Of a stretch of DNA of 64,000 bases, positions 44,031 to 58,534 are shown one piece after another. The stretch is from Methylocystis sp. ATCC 49242 (GTDB lineage Bacteria; Pseudomonadota; Alphaproteobacteria; Rhizobiales; Beijerinckiaceae), in contig NZ_KE124774.1 in NCBI RefSeq assembly GCF_000188155.2, positions 966,736 through 1,030,735 on the forward strand, written 5' to 3'. A program made the translations under genes and the position numbers. Within the stretch, counting starts at the first letter, position 1. The number at the start of each line of letters is the position of its first letter. The notes beneath the pieces are model-generated. The model ran no database searches. It saw only the letters and a program-made list of their open reading frames with translations, and was not told where the DNA came from.

Positions 44031-45956
44031 TCAGTGCGAGTGCAGATTGATTTCGACCAGCGGCTCCTGCGCCATCATTGCGACCTGCGCGGCGAGCTGT
44101 GTGGCGTTGCCGTCGTCAGGCGCGAAGTGGCGGAAGCGCGCGCGCACATAGCCCGAACGATCGACGAGGAAATGCGCCTCGCTGATTTCGGTCGTGTAAG
44201 GCACGTTCGGATAGCGGTTGATGATCGAATACGCCATCTCTACCGCCTTCGGGTGCGTCGCTTCGAGCCCCTTCGCGGCTGCCGGGCAATCGCCGGTGTA
44301 GACCGTCACATGATTCGCGCCGGAGGCCTTGGCGGATTCAGCCGCCTTCAACAGGCTTGCCTCGAGCTCCTTGGCTTCCTCGCCCGTCGCCGTGCAGCGC
44401 GCAAAGGAGATGAGCGTCGGCTTGCCGCGCAGCTTGAAGAAGGTTGTCACCTCCTCCTTCGGATCCACGAGGGCGAAATCCGGAGCGATCAGCCACTGGA
44501 TCATCGCGACGGGGCCGATAAAACGCGAACGATTGGTGTTCGACAACATCAGCAGATAGTTGATCATGTCCCAGCGATCGTCGACGTCGAGCACATGCGC
44601 GAAGCTCGGCATGACGCCGCTTTGCCCGCCGAAGGTCAGCCAGTGGAATATGTCGCCGATCGTATGCGTTCCGACATGCGGCGCGGTCAGATCGGCGGGC
44701 TGGATCGCAAGGCCCTGCGCATTCTTGAGGTCCTTCGCCATCGGCCCATTGCCCTCGCCCATCGGGCCGTGGCACGCGACACAATTTTCCTGAAACGCCT
44801 GCATCCCACGCGTGACCGACTCGGCGGTGAAGTCCTGTGTCGGATCGTTGTAGGTGTCGGTATAGGCTTCCGTCGAGAACGAGACCGCAAGGCAAAGCAG
44901 CGCCGCGATCGTCGCCGCAGGCGCGGCGTAGAGCCGGCGCTCGCGTGTCGCAGGCGTCCACCAGATCATTGCCGCCGCGATCGCAAACACGCCCGATGCG
45001 ATCGCCCACCACCAGATCGGCGACGGGAATGCCGGCTTCTGGCCCCAGGTCGCAATGTAGGAAAGCCGGAACGGCAGAGGCCAATAAATATCCGTCTCAT
45101 GCGACGCCGGCGTAATGACCGCGATATACCCCGCGATCGCCAGCAGCCCCAGGCCAAACGCGGCCTCGACGCCGCCGATCTTGCCGACCCATTCGACGTC
45201 GAATTCGCCCGCGGGACGCTTCGCCATGTAGCGGACGATCGCCAAGGCGCACAGAAGGACCGCGCAAAGGAAGGTGAGCTTCAGTGTCAGCAGCCGACCG
45301 TAAGGAGTCGCCAGCATATTGGGTATGCTGCCGACATTCTCCCAGGCGATGGCCACACCGCTGACCGCCACGAGGCCGACGGCGACCTTCGCGACCATCG
45401 ACCAGCGCTCGGCAAGCTGCGCCGCGACTTCCGGCGGCTTGCTCTTGGCGGTGAACATCCACCAGATGAGACCGAGAAGACCGCCGAGCCAAGTGAGTCC
45501 GGCCGCGGTGTGCAAAAGGAAGCTTATCTGCGTCCACCTCGGCAGGCCGTCGTCGATCGCATGGCCTGTAACGGAGACTACGGCGAGCACCACGACGCCC
45601 GTCCAGAGCGTGATGCGATCGAGCAGGTCGGACGACACAAACAGGCGCGCGACCGTCAGCCCTGCGAAGAAGAAGGCGATGAGTTGCGTCGCAATCCAGG
45701 CCATGCCGACGCTTGTGCCGAGCGTGAATTCGCGGAGCACCTCGAAATTCAACGGCCGCTCGGCGGGAATGATCGCCCGAGCTGTGACGAAAAGCAGCGC
45801 GAAACCAATCAAGGCGCGAAAGACAGCAGCCGCCGCGACAGGAATCTTGAAGCGCCCGCCATCCTCGCCGATGAGGCGGGGCAACAGCAAAAGCCCGACG
45901 GCAAGAGCTGAAGGCAGGCTTTCGAGGAAGCGTATGAACGCGAGAGACAGATACAT
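44031..45956 (-). CDS. copD: CopD-cytochrome c-thioredoxin-like fusion protein
   Basis: 641 residues. The N-terminal half (about 1-365) has eight or more membrane helices with the CopD core HTAAGLTWLGGLLGLIWW. A monohaem cytochrome c domain follows with CVACH at 392-396 and a likely Met ligand in QSGVMPSF. The last 140 residues resemble a redoxin/SCO-like fold (GKPTLISFARCTATGEEAKE) with one Cys in place of CxxC. Plain CopD has only the membrane part, so the tail is notable. The ATG at 45956 is preferred to a TTG at 45983. It lies 130 bases after copC and 70 before pmoF. Confidence 0.85.
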   Translation of the reverse strand: MYLSLAFIRFLESLPSALAVGLLLLPRLIGEDGGRFKIPVAAAAVFRALIGFALLFVTARAIIPAERPLNFEVLREFTLGTSVGMAWIATQLIAFFFAGLTVARLFVSSDLLDRITLWTGVVVLAVVSVTGHAIDDGLPRWTQISFLLHTAAGLTWLGGLLGLIWWMFTAKSKPPEVAAQLAERWSMVAKVAVGLVAVSGVAIAWENVGSIPNMLATPYGRLLTLKLTFLCAVLLCALAIVRYMAKRPAGEFDVEWVGKIGGVEAAFGLGLLAIAGYIAVITPASHETDIYWPLPFRLSYIATWGQKPAFPSPIWWWAIASGVFAIAAAMIWWTPATRERRLYAAPAATIAALLCLAVSFSTEAYTDTYNDPTQDFTAESVTRGMQAFQENCVACHGPMGEGNGPMAKDLKNAQGLAIQPADLTAPHVGTHTIGDIFHWLTFGGQSGVMPSFAHVLDVDDRWDMINYLLMLSNTNRSRFIGPVAMIQWLIAPDFALVDPKEEVTTFFKLRGKPTLISFARCTATGEEAKELEASLLKAAESAKASGANHVTVYTGDCPAAAKGLEATHPKAVEMAYSIINRYPNVPYTTEISEAHFLVDRSGYVRARFRHFAPDDGNATQLAAQVAMMAQEPLVEINLHSH

Positions 45957-46086
45957 TCTCTTTTCGCCCGATAATGCTCTCAAACCGGCGCAGCGCCGCC
46001 GCTGCTCTGCGTCGTCAGGAGATTAGAGGGAGCTGCACAGCAAGGAGCAAACCTTGCCGTGCGCGCGCTGATTGTCGATGATTCGA

Positions 46087-51816: not shown

Positions 51817-52854
51817 TTATTGAGGACGCGGCGTGTCCTTGGTGCGCGCCGGCAGGATCGGATACTGCACCTTGGGCTGGTCGCCGGTCAGCGTGCCGAG
51901 GAAAGCGACGATGGCGCCGGTTTCGTCCGCCGAAAGCGTCTGGCCGAGCTGGTCCTTCGCCATGATCGCCACGGCGTCCTCCAGCGTCCAGGCGCTGCCG
52001 CTGTGGAAATACGGCGCGTGCAATGCAACATTACGCAGCGGCGCGACGCGGAAGACGAAGTCGTCGGCGGCGTTGCCCGTAATTTTCGAACGGCCCTTGT
52101 CGGTCTGCGAGATAACCTCCGGGCCCGGCTTCTGGGCGACGCCGAACGGCTGGTAGCTGTTGCCGCCGACGTTCACGCCGTTGTGGCAACCCGCGCAGCC
52201 CTTGTCCATGAACAGGCGCAGGCCCTTCTTCTCGACCTCGTTCATGGCGCTGTCGTCGCCCTTGAGGAACTTGTCGAATTTGGCGTTGGGGGTCGTCAGC
52301 GTGGCCTCGAAGGCCTCGATGGCGTTGGCCATGTTGTCGAAGCTGACCGGATTCGCGTCATTCGGGAAGGCGGCGCGGAACTCCGCGACATAGGCGGGCA
52401 TGCTGCGCAGCGTCGCCTCGACGGCGGCGGGGGTGTTGTTCATCTCAACGTCCGCCTGCACGGGGCCTTTCGCCTGCGCCTTGAGATCGACGGCGCGGCC
52501 GTCCCAGAACTGCGCGATGTTGAACACGGCGTTAAGCACGGTCGGGGCGCGGCGTCCGCCCTTCGCCCAACCGTGGCCGATCGAGAGCGGCCCCGCGTCG
52601 ACGCCGCCCGTGGCGAGGTTGTGACAGCTGTTGCAGCTGATGACCTGGCTCTTCGAGAGGCGGGGTTCGAAGAAGAGCTTCTTTCCGAGTTCGGCCTTCG
52701 CAGGCGTCAACTCGTTGTTCTTCACGATGGAAGAGACATTGACCGAATCGACGGTCTTGAACACCGCGGTGGCGTCGGCGCGAAGGTCGCCGGCGTGAGC
52801 CATCAGCGGGAAAAGCAGCATCGCGCTCGTTGAGGCGATCCGAAGTCGAGACAT
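51817..52854 (-). CDS. Di-haem cytochrome c peroxidase/MauG-family protein
   Basis: 345 residues. Signal peptide ending MAHA. Two haem-binding motifs: CNSCH in SKSQVISCNSCHNLATGG and CAGCH in DKGCAGCHNGVNVG. Family landmarks are LGKKLFFEPRLSKS, RRAPTVLNAVFNIAQFWDGR and PLRNVALHAPYFHSGSAWTL, with the latter histidine typical of bacterial CcpA peroxidases. It reduces hydrogen peroxide or oxidises a protein in the periplasm. GGGAGTG precedes the ATG. It is divergent from a second family member at 53256. Confidence 0.92.
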   Translation of the reverse strand: MSRLRIASTSAMLLFPLMAHAGDLRADATAVFKTVDSVNVSSIVKNNELTPAKAELGKKLFFEPRLSKSQVISCNSCHNLATGGVDAGPLSIGHGWAKGGRRAPTVLNAVFNIAQFWDGRAVDLKAQAKGPVQADVEMNNTPAAVEATLRSMPAYVAEFRAAFPNDANPVSFDNMANAIEAFEATLTTPNAKFDKFLKGDDSAMNEVEKKGLRLFMDKGCAGCHNGVNVGGNSYQPFGVAQKPGPEVISQTDKGRSKITGNAADDFVFRVAPLRNVALHAPYFHSGSAWTLEDAVAIMAKDQLGQTLSADETGAIVAFLGTLTGDQPKVQYPILPARTKDTPRPQ

Positions 52855-53255
52855 TATGTTTCACTCCCTGGTTTTTTCGTCACGCAAACCCGATCGCCTC
52901 CGGCGGCCGCATGGCGCCTGAAGCTCGATCATCGGCTACCACAACCCCGGGCGCCGAAAAAGCCCTCACGGCGCAGCGCGGGAACGCGCCAGCCCCTTAT
53001 GGAGGAGCTCTTGTTACGGAATGAGTTCGTCCCCGCCATCAGGCGCCGTGGTGAGATTGCGACCGGAAATTGAATTATCCCGCTGGGAGGAGCATGGGCC
53101 GCCGGACCTCGGGCCGGCGCTTCGCTCGTCTCGAGCCTGACAGCATTCGCGCGACGGAAATACGACAAGCGCGAATGGACTCCCCTTTACATACGTCAAC
53201 AAGCGCCAAGTTAACCACGGGTGGTGAAGAGCCGCATCGGGGACGGGAGGAAACG
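52855..53255. other. Divergent promoter region between the two di-haem genes
   Basis: About 400 bases with no convincing gene. It must carry promoters in both directions. No obvious FNR-like TTGAT-N4-ATCAA site or OxyR-like motif was found by eye. Confidence 0.45.
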
Positions 53256-54404
53256 ATGACCATGCGCCTGGATGCAACGGGGATTCGCGTCGAAGCGACG
53301 CTCGCCGCTCTCTTGCTCACATTCCTTCTCGGCGTCTCTGGTTCCGACGCCGAACCTCTGGGTCTGCCCCCTGTCCCGATTCCCGCTGACAATCCCCAGA
53401 CGCCCGAAAAAATCGCATTGGGCGACAAGCTGTTTCACGACGCGCGCTTTTCGATCGACGGAACTGTGAGCTGCGCGACCTGTCACAATGACAAGAAAGC
53501 ATTCACAGACAGGCCGCTGCGCGTGTCGGAGGGTCATCACAAACTCACCGGGACGCGCAATGCGCCGACGGTGATCAATGCCGCCTATTTCACAACGCAG
53601 TTTTGGGATGGCCGCTCACCGTCCCTCGAAGACCAGTCACAACATCCGATGGTCAATCCGGTCGAGATGGGACTGCCTAGCCACGAGCCCGTGCTCAAGA
53701 TCGTGCGCGAGGATCCGGCCTATGTCGAAGCCTTCAGGAAGGCGTTCGGAAAGACCGGAAACGATGTGACGATGGACCACGTGAAAAAGGCCATCGCCAG
53801 TTTCGAGCGCACGGTCATTTCGGGCGACTCGCCCTTCGACAGATGGCGATTCGGCGGCGACGCCAGTGCGATCAGCGATCAGGCGAAACGCGGATTCGAG
53901 GTTTTCGTCGGACAGGGCCGCTGCGTCTCCTGCCATGTGATCGAACAGACGCAGGCGATCTTTACCGACAACCGGTTCCACAACATCGGGGTCGGCATCA
54001 ATCGCATACAGGCGGATGTCCCGAAACTTGCCGCCGAATTTCTGAAGGCCAAGACGGCGGGAGGCGACGTCGACAGGTCCGTGCTCGGCGATCCGAAGAC
54101 GTCGGACCTCGGCCGTTTCGCTGTAACCGACTCCTTCGACGAGATTGGCGGCTTCAAGACCTCGACCCTGCGCAATGTCGCGGTCACTGCGCCTTACATG
54201 CACGACGGTTCCCTCAAGACGCTCAAGGACGTCGTCATACATTACAACAACGGAGGGATGAGCCCCGGCGATCCGCCGACCGTGAACCCCTATCTCTCGG
54301 GCGGCATTCGTCCGCTCAATCTCTCAAATGAGCAGATGGACGATCTCGTCGCCTTCCTGGAGACGTTGACGAGTCCCGCTTATGTCGCCGCCCGGACGAA
54401 ATGA
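53256..54404 (+). CDS. MauG/peroxidase-like di-haem cytochrome
   Basis: 382 residues. Signal peptide with hydrophobic AALLLTFLLGVSGS. Haem sites are CATCH in GTVSCATCHNDKKAFTD and CVSCH in GRCVSCHVIEQTQ. FTDNRFHNIGVGIN and LRNVAVTAPYMHDGSLKTL are typical of the MauG/peroxidase superfamily. GGGAGG precedes the ATG at 53256. It heads a three-gene run: 28 bases to a metallophosphoesterase and then 14 to a small cytochrome c. Whether it is a peroxidase or modifies a partner protein cannot be told. Confidence 0.9.
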   Translation: MTMRLDATGIRVEATLAALLLTFLLGVSGSDAEPLGLPPVPIPADNPQTPEKIALGDKLFHDARFSIDGTVSCATCHNDKKAFTDRPLRVSEGHHKLTGTRNAPTVINAAYFTTQFWDGRSPSLEDQSQHPMVNPVEMGLPSHEPVLKIVREDPAYVEAFRKAFGKTGNDVTMDHVKKAIASFERTVISGDSPFDRWRFGGDASAISDQAKRGFEVFVGQGRCVSCHVIEQTQAIFTDNRFHNIGVGINRIQADVPKLAAEFLKAKTAGGDVDRSVLGDPKTSDLGRFAVTDSFDEIGGFKTSTLRNVAVTAPYMHDGSLKTLKDVVIHYNNGGMSPGDPPTVNPYLSGGIRPLNLSNEQMDDLVAFLETLTSPAYVAARTK

Positions 54405-54432
54405 CGCGACGCAAACCGCGACGGAGGAAACA

Positions 54433-55512
54433 ATGTCGAAACTCATCACCAGGCGAAGCGTCATGGCCGCGGGCGCTGCCGGGCTCGCGGGAACCGTAAC
54501 GACGCTGCCGCTGAGCATGGTTCGGCTTGCCTTCGGCGGAACGCGCGAGGATTTCACCTTCACCTATATTTCCGATTCCCACATCCAGCAGATCAAGGGC
54601 GCGAGTTTCGTGCGCAATTGGGACACGGGCCTCAAGCGTGCGGTCGCCGAAGCCAATCTCATCGTTCCCGAATCCGATTTCGTGATGTTCGGCGGCGATC
54701 TCGCGCAGCTCGGCAAGCGCGAGGAGCTCGACCATGGCGCCGAGATGCTTTCACATCTCAAGAGCAAGCTCCATGCGGTGATGGGTGAGCATGATTATTA
54801 TCTCGACCTCGGCGAATACTGGTCGAAACTCTACGGCCCGCAGTGGTACAGCTTCGATCACAAGGGCGTGCATTTCGTCGTGCTGAACTCGATCCTCACC
54901 ACCGACGAGTGGACATTTCATCGCTGGCCGACCGCCGAGCGGCGCATGCAGGAGATGGCGGGCCTTGACAATCCCAACGGCTCGCCCTTCATGGTCGGCG
55001 AGAAGCAGCGGAAATGGCTGGCGGATGATCTCGCCAAGGTCTCGAAGGACACGCCTCTCATCGTGTTCTCGCACTCGCCGCTACAAAAAATCTACAAAGG
55101 CTGGAACTTCTGGACAGACGACGCCGAGCAGGTGCAGGCGCTGCTGCAACCGTTCAAGAGCGTAAACGTGATCTACGGACATGTGCACCAGATTCAGTAC
55201 AACCAGATCGGCAATATCGCCTTCAACTCGGTGATGGCGACGGCGTGGCCCTGGCCCTACCCCGATTCTTATGCGCAGGCCGGCGCGCAGGTTCCCGTGC
55301 TCACCGTTCCGATGAACCGCGCCGACCCCTTCTTCGAGCGTGATGCGACAGGCTGGCAGCTCATCGACGTCAACTCCGGCCGGATCACAGCGCGTTACCA
55401 GCTTTGGGACAATCAGGAGCGTGTTGTCGGCTTCGACCGAAAGCAGGGAAAGCCGGTGGACAAGGCTTATCAGGAGCCGAGCCGCCGCAAGACGGCGCAA
55501 ACCCACTACTGA
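54433..55512 (+). CDS. Tat-exported calcineurin-like metallophosphoesterase
   Basis: 359 residues. The N-terminus MSKLITRRSVMAAGAAGLAG is a twin-arginine signal. Metallophosphoesterase motifs: TYISDSHIQQ (D-x-H), FVMFGGDLAQLG (GD), VMGEHDYYLD (G-x-H-D rather than GNHD), VFSHSPLQ and YGHVHQIQYN (GHxH). It is a periplasmic, di-metal phosphohydrolase of unknown substrate. GGAGGAAAC lies before the ATG. Being enclosed by haem proteins suggests a shared periplasmic process. Confidence 0.92.
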   Translation: MSKLITRRSVMAAGAAGLAGTVTTLPLSMVRLAFGGTREDFTFTYISDSHIQQIKGASFVRNWDTGLKRAVAEANLIVPESDFVMFGGDLAQLGKREELDHGAEMLSHLKSKLHAVMGEHDYYLDLGEYWSKLYGPQWYSFDHKGVHFVVLNSILTTDEWTFHRWPTAERRMQEMAGLDNPNGSPFMVGEKQRKWLADDLAKVSKDTPLIVFSHSPLQKIYKGWNFWTDDAEQVQALLQPFKSVNVIYGHVHQIQYNQIGNIAFNSVMATAWPWPYPDSYAQAGAQVPVLTVPMNRADPFFERDATGWQLIDVNSGRITARYQLWDNQERVVGFDRKQGKPVDKAYQEPSRRKTAQTHY

Positions 55513-55526
55513 CCGAGGAGAACAAC

Positions 55527-55925
55527 ATGCGTCGTGTTACAATCGCCCTGGCCCTGGGCCTTTCCCTGATCGCGCAATCCGCTCTCGCGGATGAATTCAG
55601 CAAGGCCGACGTCGAGCGCTGGCAAGGCGAATTCGACTCCGTAGCCAAAAAAGGCCGCGAGTTGTGGACGAGCGGCGCGCTGGGGACGAATGGCGTCGCC
55701 TGCGCCCAATGCCATCCCAACGCCGCCAATACGCATCCGGAGACCTATCCGAAATTCCAGAAGCAGCTCGCGAAGGTCGCGCAGCTTTGGGAAATGGTGA
55801 ACTGGTGCATCAAGAATCCGCTGCAGGGCGCGGCGCTTGCGGCCGACGATCCGAAAATGACCGCTCTCTTGTCCTACATCGCTTTCGAGCGGCGCGGCGT
55901 GAAGCTTACCCCCGGCAAACACTAA
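55527..55925 (+). CDS. Small monohaem cytochrome c
   Basis: 132 residues. Signal peptide ending QSALA. One CAQCH motif in NGVACAQCHPNAANTHPET, and an additional cysteine in EMVNWCIKNPLQG that could be a disulfide or ligand. KMTALLSYIAFERRGV is near the C-terminus; a Met there may be the sixth ligand. The pattern of haem followed by HPETYPKFQ recalls cytochromes of the SoxX/TsdA-partner type. GAGGAG precedes the ATG. It is probably the electron partner of the di-haem protein in the same run. Confidence 0.88.
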   Translation: MRRVTIALALGLSLIAQSALADEFSKADVERWQGEFDSVAKKGRELWTSGALGTNGVACAQCHPNAANTHPETYPKFQKQLAKVAQLWEMVNWCIKNPLQGAALAADDPKMTALLSYIAFERRGVKLTPGKH

Positions 55926-56060
55926 ACTTTCTCTCGCCCTGCGGGGTCGGGATCGCCGGCCCGTCCCGGCCCAGCCCAAGCGAAACTGTTGCGCCGGCTG
56001 ACGTTTTGAGCGACCTTTGTCGACTTGAATTGCGAGCCTACAAGTTTTGCCGGGTTATCG

Positions 56061-57158
56061 ATGGACCAGGATCTCGTCGACCGCATCTATGCAAGTTCTT
56101 TTGCGCCAGAGCTCTGGCCGCGGGTCATGGACGAGCTCTCCCGAATGGCGGACGCGCGAGGGGGCGTGCTGTTCGCCGCGAATCCGAAGGCGATCAACTG
56201 GACGTCCTCGGACTGCGTTCGGGAGCACATGGCGGCCTACGCCACGGAGGGGTGGATCGAGCGGGGACGGGACCGGCGCGCCCGGCTGATGCGCCTTCGA
56301 TACGCCGGGTTCATGGTTGAATCCGACATTTATACCCCCCAAGAGCTGGAGACCGACCCGACCTACCAGCAATTCCTGCGTCCGCGCGGCCTCGGCTGGA
56401 CCGTTTCGACGGTGATGTCACTGCCGACGGGCGACGACCTTTTCATCTGCCTGAACCGCGATTTCGACCGCGGCCCGGTGGAGCCGGCCTTCGTCAGACG
56501 CCTCGACGAATTGCGGCCCCACCTCGCGCGCGGGGCGCTGATGTCGGCGCGCATGCAACTGGAGCGCGCCCGCGTCGCCAGCGAGACGCTCGCGCTCATC
56601 GGTCTGCCGGCCCTCGTCATCGGGGAGAAAGGACGAGTTCTCGCCACCAATCATTTGATGGAAGCCCTGACCGAGCATGTGCGCTGGCGTGCGCAGGACG
56701 CGTTCTCGCTACGGGATGACGCGGCCGACCAGTTGCTCGCCGGCGCGATGACGACCCTCCACGACGACCGGAGCGCCCCCACGCGCTCCTTCCCGGTGCG
56801 CGGCGCCGAAGAGCGTGCGCCCATGATCGTCCATGTCGTGCCGATTCGCGGCGCGGCGCGCGACATATTCGTGGGCTGCGCCGCCGTGGTTGTGATGACG
56901 CCCGTCGGAACGCCACAGGCGCCGCCGGTCGAGCTGGTGCAGTCGCTCTTCGACCTGACGCCCGCTGAAGCGCGCGTGGCGCGCAGCCTGGTCGTCGGAA
57001 AATCGCTGGAGGAGATCGCCGCGGACGGCGCCGTCTCGCGCAACACTGTGCGCACCCACATGCGCAACGTAATGGAAAAGACGGGCTGCAACCGTCAGGC
57101 GGAGGTCGTCTCGCTGCTCGGCGGGCTTTCGCCGCTGGGGGCAGGTTTCCCCGCCTGA
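56061..57158 (+). CDS. LuxR-family transcriptional regulator
   Basis: 365 residues. The C-terminal helix-turn-helix is standard LuxR/FixJ type: LTPAEARVARSLVVGKSLEE then SRNTVRTHMRNVMEKTG and NRQAEVVSLL. The N-terminal 200 residues have a PAS/GAF-like pattern (GLGWTVSTVMSLPTGDDLF, LPALVIGEKGRVLATNHLM). No receiver domain is seen, so it senses a ligand directly. It lies 135 bases after the cytochrome gene, in the same direction, and may regulate that set. Confidence 0.88.
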   Translation: MDQDLVDRIYASSFAPELWPRVMDELSRMADARGGVLFAANPKAINWTSSDCVREHMAAYATEGWIERGRDRRARLMRLRYAGFMVESDIYTPQELETDPTYQQFLRPRGLGWTVSTVMSLPTGDDLFICLNRDFDRGPVEPAFVRRLDELRPHLARGALMSARMQLERARVASETLALIGLPALVIGEKGRVLATNHLMEALTEHVRWRAQDAFSLRDDAADQLLAGAMTTLHDDRSAPTRSFPVRGAEERAPMIVHVVPIRGAARDIFVGCAAVVVMTPVGTPQAPPVELVQSLFDLTPAEARVARSLVVGKSLEEIAADGAVSRNTVRTHMRNVMEKTGCNRQAEVVSLLGGLSPLGAGFPA

Positions 57159-57469
57159 CGGTGCCCGTCATAGAAATCCGCCCGCGTCATCCGTTTGGAC
57201 GATGATCAAGAATTACTTTCGTCATAATTCTTCAATCGAACAACGGGCGGCGGACGAAATTTCCGCGGACGCCAAAAGCCCCGGTGTTCGATACAAAACC
57301 GCGTTTTTCAGGCTACCTTTTAATCGTTCTATAGCTTCCAGCACTTTTCTCGATAAATTTTGGGGGGGGGCCTTCGCGAGGCCCCCTTTGCATTTTTATC
57401 TATATGATTTTTCTGACGTTTTTTTTGCATAGCGCCCGCACCCTAAAGACAGGTGCGGGAATAAAATGT
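57159..57469. other. Junction between chromosome backbone and integrase region
   Basis: About 310 bases, AT-rich in parts (TTTTTATCTATATGATTTTTC). It has the terminator at 57366 and a CCCGCACC/GGTGCGGG inverted pair at 57435-57458 next to the integrase stop. No tRNA is present. This is the natural place for an attachment site, but I could not find a second copy by eye. Confidence 0.45.
57366..57397 (+). terminator. Terminator downstream of the LuxR-type gene
   Basis: GGGGGCC/GGCCCCC stem with a seven-base loop followed by TTTGCATTTTT, preceded by a nine-G run. It is 208 bases after the regulator's stop. Confidence 0.75.
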
Positions 57470-58534
57470 TCACCGTTCGGGCTTGGCGAGCTTGGCAATC
57501 GCCTGTCGCGCGAGCCGGGCGCGATCTGCTTCCTTTGTATAGTGCGACGCCATTTGACCACCCGTCCAACCAAATAGCGCCTCTAGCTCCGCGACGGTCG
57601 CGCCAGCATTCGCCGCGCGCGTCGCCGCGACCTTGCGAAGGCCATGCGGCGAAGCGTCGACGCCAGCGGCTCTACAGGCGCAGAGGAACATGGCGCTGAA
57701 TGCGTCGGCGCAAATCGGTCGACCGGACTTCGTCGCGATGAAATTCAGGTCGCCCGTGGGACTCTTGTCGATAATCTCGGCAAGCGCCGGAAGCATTGGC
57801 AGATGCACCGGCGTGTTCGTCTTTTCCGTCCTCAGGCTGATAACGCCGTCTCGGACGTGCTGACGACCGAGCTTCACCACGTCGCCGCGCCTCAGTCCGG
57901 TATACATCAGAATCGCCAGCGCAAGCCTCTCGCGCGTGCCAACAGGCCAACGCGCTTCAAAGCGTTCAATATCCGCCTCAGTCCACGGACGATGACCGTC
58001 TGTTCTTTGTGACAGCATCTTGACGCCTTCGCACGGATTGGTTGCGACATGGTCCGCCTCGAACGCCCAAGCGAATAGCCCGGCCCTCGCCTTCAAGAAA
58101 TGATTTGCAGCCGACGGGGTTGCGCGGCGCCGGTCCCTGCCCTCGACAATCTTGGCGCGCGTGACGGCCGTATAAGCCTTGTCGCCTGCGGCCTCGATAA
58201 CCGCCTGAAATATGCGCTCGCGTCGCTGGCGCGTCTCTAGGGCGAGTTGTGACCAGTGTGAACTCTCGGCGCGGTATTTGTCGATCAGCCAGCGCAATGA
58301 GCCGCTCTTTGCGCCGGCGGGCTTCTTCGGCGCGACCTCCCCGGCCATGGCGGCGTGGTAGGCGCTCCAGAAATCATCACTGCCATATGCGTCAGGAAGA
58401 CGGACGCGCGGCCCCTTCCCTTTCCGGAAATACCAGACGCGACGGCCGTGGCGCGAGATTTCCGAATGCAGATAGGGAGGGCGCGGGCGCGGCATATCGG
58501 CCTCACGGGAAGGATTATCGACGCGGCGAATCAT
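57470..58534 (-). CDS. int: Tyrosine recombinase/integrase
   Basis: 354 residues. Phage-type integrase with the catalytic set: Arg in ILMYTGLRRGDVVKL, H-x-x-R in SPHGLRKVAATRA, and the nucleophile Tyr in GQMASHYTKEADRARL. The N-terminal half is a core-binding domain (SLRWLIDKYRAESSHWSQL). The start at 58534 overlaps the preceding stop (ATGA); a start at 58495 (MPRPRPPYLH) is also reasonable. It marks the left end of an integrated element running towards the window end. Confidence 0.93.
   Translation of the reverse strand: MIRRVDNPSREADMPRPRPPYLHSEISRHGRRVWYFRKGKGPRVRLPDAYGSDDFWSAYHAAMAGEVAPKKPAGAKSGSLRWLIDKYRAESSHWSQLALETRQRRERIFQAVIEAAGDKAYTAVTRAKIVEGRDRRRATPSAANHFLKARAGLFAWAFEADHVATNPCEGVKMLSQRTDGHRPWTEADIERFEARWPVGTRERLALAILMYTGLRRGDVVKLGRQHVRDGVISLRTEKTNTPVHLPMLPALAEIIDKSPTGDLNFIATKSGRPICADAFSAMFLCACRAAGVDASPHGLRKVAATRAANAGATVAELEALFGWTGGQMASHYTKEADRARLARQAIAKLAKPER

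Follow-up and report, generated by a model that had tools for sequence, protein, structure and literature searches.

A conserved diheme protein, metallophosphoesterase-fold protein, and cytochrome c gene set in Methylocystis and other bacteria as a possible peroxide-responsive exported redox module

A 64,000-nucleotide stretch of the Methylocystis sp. ATCC 49242 genome (contig NZ_KE124774.1, positions 966,736 to 1,030,735; here, the window) codes for an exported diheme protein (DH), a metallophosphoesterase-fold protein (MPE) exported by the twin-arginine translocation (Tat) system, and a small cytochrome c (CYC). A LuxR-type regulator gene follows, and a second diheme protein, CCP2, is encoded divergently. 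The features are listed here by position in the window.

51817..52854, minus strand: CCP2, classical diheme cytochrome c peroxidase, divergent from DH (438 bits to the solved peroxidase 1nml)
52855..53255, no strand: intergenic stretch of 401 bases separating the divergent CCP2 and DH genes
53256..54404, plus strand: DH, exported diheme protein of the CCP_MauG superfamily, MauG/MbnH-like by its predicted Tyr330 ligand (CCP_MauG, 194.4 bits)
54433..55512, plus strand: MPE, Tat-exported metallophosphoesterase-fold protein with GEHD replacing GNHD (Metallophos, 48.5 bits)
55527..55925, plus strand: CYC, single-heme SoxA/TsdA-type cytochrome c with a conserved second Cys, Cys94 (PF21342, 52.4 bits)
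56061..57158, plus strand: LuxR-type regulator gene, a local neighbor only (GerE domain)

The DH, MPE, CYC, and LuxR-type genes lie head to tail on the plus strand with gaps of 28, 14, and 135 bases, and GGAGG- or GAGGAG-like sequences are visible by eye ahead of the DH, MPE, and CYC starts. An earlier note on this DNA had described three tightly spaced genes with ribosome sites, and both features are borne out. Pfam assigns CCP_MauG and Cytochrom_C domains to DH, Metallophos to MPE, SoxA-TsdA_cyt-c to CYC, and GerE alone to the LuxR-type protein; the ligand sensing once ascribed to this regulator has no counterpart among its domains. Together, Pfam and NCBIfam place DH, MPE, and CYC at the superfamily or domain level only.

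Searching the genomes of 84,980 species with MPE as the sole query, we confirmed 217 relatives and kept the best 80 loci, a sample that is hence biased to near kin and that excludes the window itself (L001). Many of the relatives are metagenome bins, and individual organism names may be wrong. A complete, same-strand DH-MPE-CYC triad is present at 75 of the 80 loci fetched in this way. Four of the five misses (L002, L030, L047, and L055) are at contig ends, and the fifth, L039, has no CYC; in this Omnitrophota bin (L039:9986-15178) the MPE continues into a long beta-helix-like frame, an arrangement that is perhaps a chimeric assembly or a fusion. Pairwise sequence distances among DH, MPE, and CYC correlate at 0.72, 0.57, and 0.72 for 56 loci outside the Methylocystaceae (L048 excluded), compared with a maximum of 0.20 in 999 permutations, as expected if the set is inherited or moved together. 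The three genes thus form an operon-like gene set, probably with a single transcript. The earlier note had proposed such a set and had named a lack of co-occurrence elsewhere as its refutation, and the proposal withstands that comparison. Its inclusion of the LuxR-type gene does not: this gene is present at 13 of the 20 Methylocystaceae loci (L002, one of the seven without it, is cut) and at none of the 60 others, and we reject it as a member of the set.

The 80 loci cover about 11 phyla, with names sorted by title. Thirty-four are titled as methanotrophs, including Methylocystis, Methylosinus, Methylomonas, and Methylobacter; the titles also include Steroidobacter, Nitrosomonas, Sulfuriferula, Bdellovibrionales, Acidobacteria, Gemmatimonadales, and Hydrogenedentota, with further triads in Omnitrophota, Verrucomicrobia, Latescibacterota, Desulfobacterium, Phycisphaerae, and Zixiibacteriota. 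Many triad hosts are thus not methylotrophs by title, and a special role in C1 metabolism is not supported. Identity to the MPE of the window is 65 to 89% among 54 aligned relatives and 65 to 74% across phyla. The distribution is nonetheless patchy: an MPE match at 1e-40 is present in 23 of the 39 genomes of the genus and absent from 16 (some of these are incomplete), and an even sample of 398 genomes of the phylum gave matches in just two, the genome of the window and that of a DH-less relative. The window's genome has a single match to MPE. This broad, patchy, and strongly conserved occurrence suggests that the triad has spread horizontally under constraint.

We assessed DH from its sequence, and structure models were made for MPE and CYC. 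The second heme motif of DH is kept in 78 of 78 relatives and the first in 76, the other two having gaps. Position 330 is Tyr in all 78; its counterparts in alignments are residue 294 of MauG and a Tyr of the diheme enzyme 6e1c, in line with the MauG-like character that had been suggested for this protein. Classical cytochrome c peroxidases have a Met ligand where the MauG/MbnH type has Tyr. DH is therefore not a classical cytochrome c peroxidase, and by its predicted ligand it falls with the MauG/MbnH-like proteins; Tyr294 is named as an axial ligand of MauG in the title of a reference within PMC6405878. We also reject DH as MbnH or MauG proper, since it scores under both curated cutoffs (266.1 bits versus 362.85 for MbnH, TIGR04039, and 227.8 bits versus 443.85 for MauG, TIGR03791). 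CCP2 keeps the Met of the AVAxM stretch, as does 1nml, and is divergent from DH at 19 of the 20 Methylocystaceae loci, the twentieth being cut. MauG and MbnH act beside neighboring substrate proteins, methylamine dehydrogenase and MbnP, respectively. DH resembles them in being a diheme CCP_MauG protein with a predicted Tyr ligand whose gene adjoins those of an exported metalloprotein and of a cytochrome or another partner; its recurrent neighbors at most loci are MPE and CYC. It differs from them in its scores, in having a metallophosphoesterase-fold partner, and in the peroxide-sensor genes nearby.

MPE matches PF00149 well above the cutoff of 21.5 bits, and its ligand residues D48, H50, D89, E119, H120, H214, H250, and H252 are invariant. 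Glu119, however, replaces the Asn of GNHD in 81 of 81 proteins (giving GEHD), and MPE departs in this from the GNH[DE] motif of PF00149 with its metal-binding Asn. Foldseek searches with the MPE model (predicted local distance difference test score [pLDDT], 67) gave GpdQ and Rv0805 as best matches, which confirms the fold and no more. The best solved relatives shown carry Asn at the position of Glu119, and the solved chains listed include the mutant Rv0805N97A, whose Asn97 we take to be the residue replaced by Glu119. GpdQ, Rv0805, and the purple acid phosphatases share the fold and most metal-ligand motifs with MPE, and they differ from it in that MPE has GEHD, Tat export, and an adjoining carrier gene. 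Scores against curated models are far below cutoff for the 3',5'-cAMP phosphodiesterase (NF008359; 33.1 versus 225 bits) and for SpdA (NF050112; 28.4 versus 400 bits). Among eight PF00149 matches in the window's genome, MPE alone has GEHD; five have GNHD or GNHE, and two gave no motif with the pattern used. By analogy with redox-active dimetal enzymes, Glu119 would make the dimetal site of MPE richer in carboxylates. Many Trp residues of MPE are also invariant (e.g., positions 63, 130, 160, 165, 195, 224, 227, 272, 274, and 308) and are possible DH targets. No single one stands out: some are missing from the diverged MPE of Methylocystis MJC1, a genome that also encodes a DH. A second MPE copy without DH or CYC, 78% identical, is present on Methylocystis bryophila plasmid p1 (L082:8923-9999), where the surroundings contain insertion sequence remnants, a siderophore receptor, and nonribosomal peptide synthetase genes.

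It is conceivable, if rather unlikely, that MPE is a genuine phosphatase or phosphodiesterase of the periplasm acting, for example, on an oxidized or stress-related phosphoester, with DH and CYC as a peroxidase and its donor that are co-regulated with MPE and do not interact with it. The PF00149 score, the closeness to GpdQ and Rv0805, and the retention of the usual ligand and catalytic positions apart from the Asn-to-Glu change all favor this, but so strict a Glu is unexpected in a phosphatase.

CYC is a protein of 132 residues with one heme domain, and its PF21342 score exceeds the cutoff of 27 bits. Residues C59, C62, H63, C94, and H132, the last residue of the protein, are kept in 79 of 79 relatives. 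Cys94 lines up with the Cys found at position 114 of the SoxA chain in 1h31, presumably the SoxA heme ligand, and may play the same part in CYC. The first 13 Foldseek matches of the CYC model (pLDDT, 87) are SoxA/SoxAX and TsdA, with modest E values (best, 0.004). CYC shares the PF21342 domain and its second Cys with SoxA and TsdA but has one heme domain where they have two, and it falls short of the SoxA model (TIGR04484; 45.6 bits versus a cutoff of 110).

These likenesses raise the question of a sulfur system, in which MPE would resemble the SoxB sulfohydrolase and CYC would resemble SoxA, bound sulfur species would be oxidized or hydrolyzed, and DH would be an electron sink or a maturation enzyme. 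We consider this improbable. The sequence and fold of CYC are in its favor, as are a DH-less relative pair near soxY and soxZ on a Sinorhizobium plasmid, another near a TauE/SafE gene on a Phyllobacterium plasmid, and a rhodanese-like frame, recognized by eye, after CYC at six loci (five in Steroidobacteraceae or relatives, and L033). MPE and SoxB belong, we presume, to the same superfamily. However, no sox family recurs at the 60 loci outside the Methylocystaceae (frames of at least 90 residues, 70 bits), and CYC has its single heme domain and subthreshold SoxA score. A SoxB model is absent among MPE matches at 0.001 in the Pfam and NCBIfam scans, in which no direct comparison with SoxB was made.

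More distant relatives show MPE with a variety of electron carriers. Methylocystis MJC1 has all three genes with an MPE relative that is 52% identical, and on Sinorhizobium and Phyllobacterium plasmids MPE relatives of 38 to 42% identity adjoin CYC, and no DH match lies near them. In the two annotated plasmid loci of these genera, MPE-CYC comes after SCO and carboxypeptidase-regulatory-like genes; at L119:3180-9684, on a Phyllobacterium plasmid, the DH-less pair lies between these two genes and two cytochrome oxidase subunit genes. Among relatives at 32 to 37% identity, a cupredoxin gene overlaps MPE by four bases in Streptomyces and Mycobacteroides, and in Gemmatirosa the cupredoxin is fused to the MPE relative. 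In an alignment of 19 proteins of the family, all 19 keep GEHD and the twin arginine is invariant. A family-profile search of the 398 phylum genomes, made so as not to depend on hand-picked examples, gave 19 matches, all with GEHD. Hidden Markov models (HMMs) identify a carrier at 16 of these 19 loci: CYC at two (the window's own and that of genome G214) and a cupredoxin at 14, all 14 at 4e-37 or better and within about 1.4 kb of the GEHD gene. At L153 a cupredoxin is recognized by Pfam, and L154 gives a weak match (7e-07).

Two of 37 PF00149 loci used as controls were themselves GEHD loci with CYC, and none of the other 35 has either carrier nearby. GNHD is present in all 16 of these 35 that have a motif call; the remaining 19 proteins were unmatched by the profile, and their motif was not read. 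Fisher's exact test gives 5e-11 (16/19 versus 0/35), or 4e-10 (14/17) with two profile members removed, values whose true weight is lowered by shared descent; the controls also came from closer relatives than the sampled loci did. We had selected the relatives that went into the carrier HMMs and the family profile, and the window's genome and G214, which contributed to the profile, also count among the 19 matches. Two unrelated carrier folds together with a fusion argue against mere hitchhiking, and the persistence of MPE where one carrier fold gives way to another suggests a part for MPE in electron exchange. The phosphatase reading would not lead one to expect an MPE-cupredoxin fusion, nor a carrier pairing that outlasts both the loss of DH and the switch from cytochrome to cupredoxin; the same replacement of CYC by cupredoxin is unfavorable to a sulfur system. 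The periplasmic phosphoesterase proposed in the earlier note therefore keeps some plausibility as to activity, while the replacement of Asn by Glu and the company of electron carriers favor a different role.

Outside the Methylocystaceae, with frames that overlap the triad set aside, the commonest non-triad families are Fur-type (14 loci) and LysR-type (10 loci) genes. We counted regulators at 53 loci with at least 700 bases upstream of DH, six of the 59 loci with DH being too short. A PerR-type gene of the Fur family is close upstream of DH at 12 of these, and all 12 proteins have an Asp that aligns by eye with an Asp of PerR 2fe3, which we take to be the functional position PerR Asp104. Fur-family genes also lie directly downstream of CYC in L036 and L043. 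A full-length LysR gene with OxyR as the best match is upstream of DH at three of the 53 loci, and both OxyR-like proteins checked (L040 and L053) have two Cys spaced by eight residues, presumably as in OxyR. A short LysR-type DNA-binding protein is upstream at seven more (L024, L025, L029, L031, L033, L038, and L056); it is about 100 residues long, comprises the DNA-binding part only, and is encoded about 0.3 to 0.7 kb from DH.

A third type of regulator accompanies the cupredoxin-type relatives. At 10 of 13 further cupredoxin-type GEHD loci with longer flanks, a pair of extracytoplasmic function (ECF) sigma and anti-sigma factor genes adjoins MPE, as counted with a profile made from five of the 13, and eight of the 10 pairs have an HxxxCxxC motif. 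In characterized examples, zinc anti-sigma factors of this type respond to the oxidation of thiols. The ECF sigma and zinc anti-sigma pairs among these loci (L185-L198, L121, L122, and L126) are of one subfamily, and such pairs are also present at three of seven plasmid loci. The ECF and zinc anti-sigma genes with a cupredoxin-type GEHD gene constitute a separate, undescribed locus. Fur, LysR, and ECF/anti-sigma proteins beside the family thus represent three unrelated regulator classes, each with known oxidant sensors; the earlier note contains no hint of a link to peroxide. The ECF26 promoter pattern, which is linked to sulfite, was found upstream of MPE relatives at one of 20 loci (control rate, 1.5%) and was rejected; this result, and the peroxide-sensor types of the recurrent regulators, are further points against a sulfur system. 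The word phosphoesterase is absent from the main texts of four papers on rhizobial ECF factors (PMC3420878, PMC6180224, PMC3511301, and PMC6527743).

We propose, at somewhat less than even confidence, that DH-MPE-CYC is an operon encoding a peroxide-responsive exported redox module, with MPE and its altered dimetal site working together with CYC and with DH using H2O2 to oxidize the MPE-CYC pair. MPE would be a Tat-exported metalloprotein with a Glu-for-Asn dimetal site and a partner of the one-electron carrier CYC, as opposed to a free-standing phosphatase. DH would react with H2O2 to reach a high-valent diheme state, like its Tyr-ligated relatives, and would draw electrons from MPE-CYC. Peroxide-driven oxidation is proposed because this kind of diheme protein reacts with H2O2 and oxidizes a partner or donor. 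Two routes are about equally likely: DH may act once per molecule in the oxidative maturation of an MPE residue, in the manner of MauG and MbnH, or may turn over repeatedly as a peroxidase, in the manner of BthA. The redox role of MPE, the reaction of DH with H2O2, the direction of electron flow, and induction by peroxide are what we infer from these patterns. In the portion of PMC6405878 available, BthA of Burkholderia is Tyr-ligated, as is predicted for DH, forms bis-Fe(IV), and reduces H2O2, which it can use in turnover, and no triad-like operon is mentioned for it there; the BthA structure 6nx0 matches DH weakly (55 bits).

A wider and more tentative proposal, which we regard as doubtful, is that GEHD proteins in general are exported metallophosphoesterase-fold oxidoreductases. 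The Asn-to-Glu change would convert a hydrolase fold to a dimetal redox enzyme, with cytochromes c or cupredoxins as its partners in electron exchange and with protection of the periplasm from peroxide or other oxidants as its task; the MauG-type enzyme of the window would install an oxidized residue in it.

Several observations weigh against the proposed redox module. Neither regulator type is near DH at 31 of the 53 loci and seven others have the short LysR protein only; neither type is upstream at any of 19 loci in the Methylocystaceae, the window's own group; and the PerR and OxyR model scores are under the NCBI cutoffs. The cupredoxin-type and Sinorhizobium-type relatives examined are without DH, and DH is therefore not essential to the MPE family. 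Carriers are also missing at L155 of the 19-locus sample and near the solitary M. bryophila plasmid copy (L082), and none was found near the GEHD gene of Burkholderia vietnamiensis (L123). MPE keeps all ligands but one and the residue taken as the catalytic His in phosphatases, and may thus still hydrolyze a substrate. Finally, the potential of a His/Cys-ligated cytochrome may be too low to feed a peroxidase.

Among the literature matches listed, in which most subscription journals are not covered, there is no description of a DH-MPE-CYC operon, no paper pairing a metallophosphoesterase with cytochrome c peroxidase and MauG, none linking a phosphoesterase with SoxA/TsdA, none joining metallophosphoesterase with diheme, PerR, or OxyR, and, to judge from titles and the openings of abstracts, none on this set among those on ECF/anti-sigma factors. 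The sole match for metallophosphoesterase, methanotroph, and cytochrome c concerns, in the part seen, phosphate limitation in Desulfovibrio. The sole match that joins a metallophosphoesterase with a cupredoxin is a plant paper, and no phosphoesterase term occurs among the matches listed in a wider cupredoxin search. The earlier statement that no described pathway combines these components thus agrees with what was found. As far as the literature searches reach, the operon is undescribed; it is of the kind that combines a MauG-type diheme protein with a partner, and MPE is possibly a categorically new element within it.

The surroundings of the gene set in the window include the minus-strand genes pmoC, pmoA, and pmoB, 0.95 kb past CCP2. 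Near pmoB, one 650-residue protein (44031-45983, minus strand) contains both a CopD copper-resistance domain and cytochrome c domains. The pmo genes raise the question of a service to methane oxidation, such as maturing or protecting the adjoining copper enzyme, particulate methane monooxygenase. Full or partial pmo frames are on the same side at six of the 20 Methylocystaceae loci (most others are cut there), and methanotroph titles are frequent among the best 80 of the 217 loci. That sample is biased to near kin, however, and no pmo match is present at the 60 loci outside the Methylocystaceae, which include methanotrophs with flanks of up to 10 kb. With triads in Steroidobacter, Acidobacteria, Verrucomicrobia, and others, and with genus genomes, some incomplete, that have no MPE match, this role is very unlikely.

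Downstream, two overlapping terminator-like sites at 57363-57391, after the LuxR-type gene, are the only ones on the plus strand in the scanned stretch, which makes one transcript shared by the triad and the LuxR-type gene possible in the window; the scan gave six sites overall versus 5.3 expected and thus no excess above chance. A tyrosine recombinase gene (Phage_integrase; 57470-58534, minus strand) opens the region to the right of these sites, and G+C drops to 0.54 at 62 to 64 kb of the window; given the two, a mobile element may border the gene set.

An operon whose metal and heme ligands are so strictly kept must serve a specific role. If the redox module proposed here is correct, MauG-like enzymes would have a new type of partner, and the use of a hydrolase fold for electron transfer could be tested in a concrete example. 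The combination of GEHD with a carrier gene is also a signature with which to sort proteins that are annotated merely as metallophosphoesterases.

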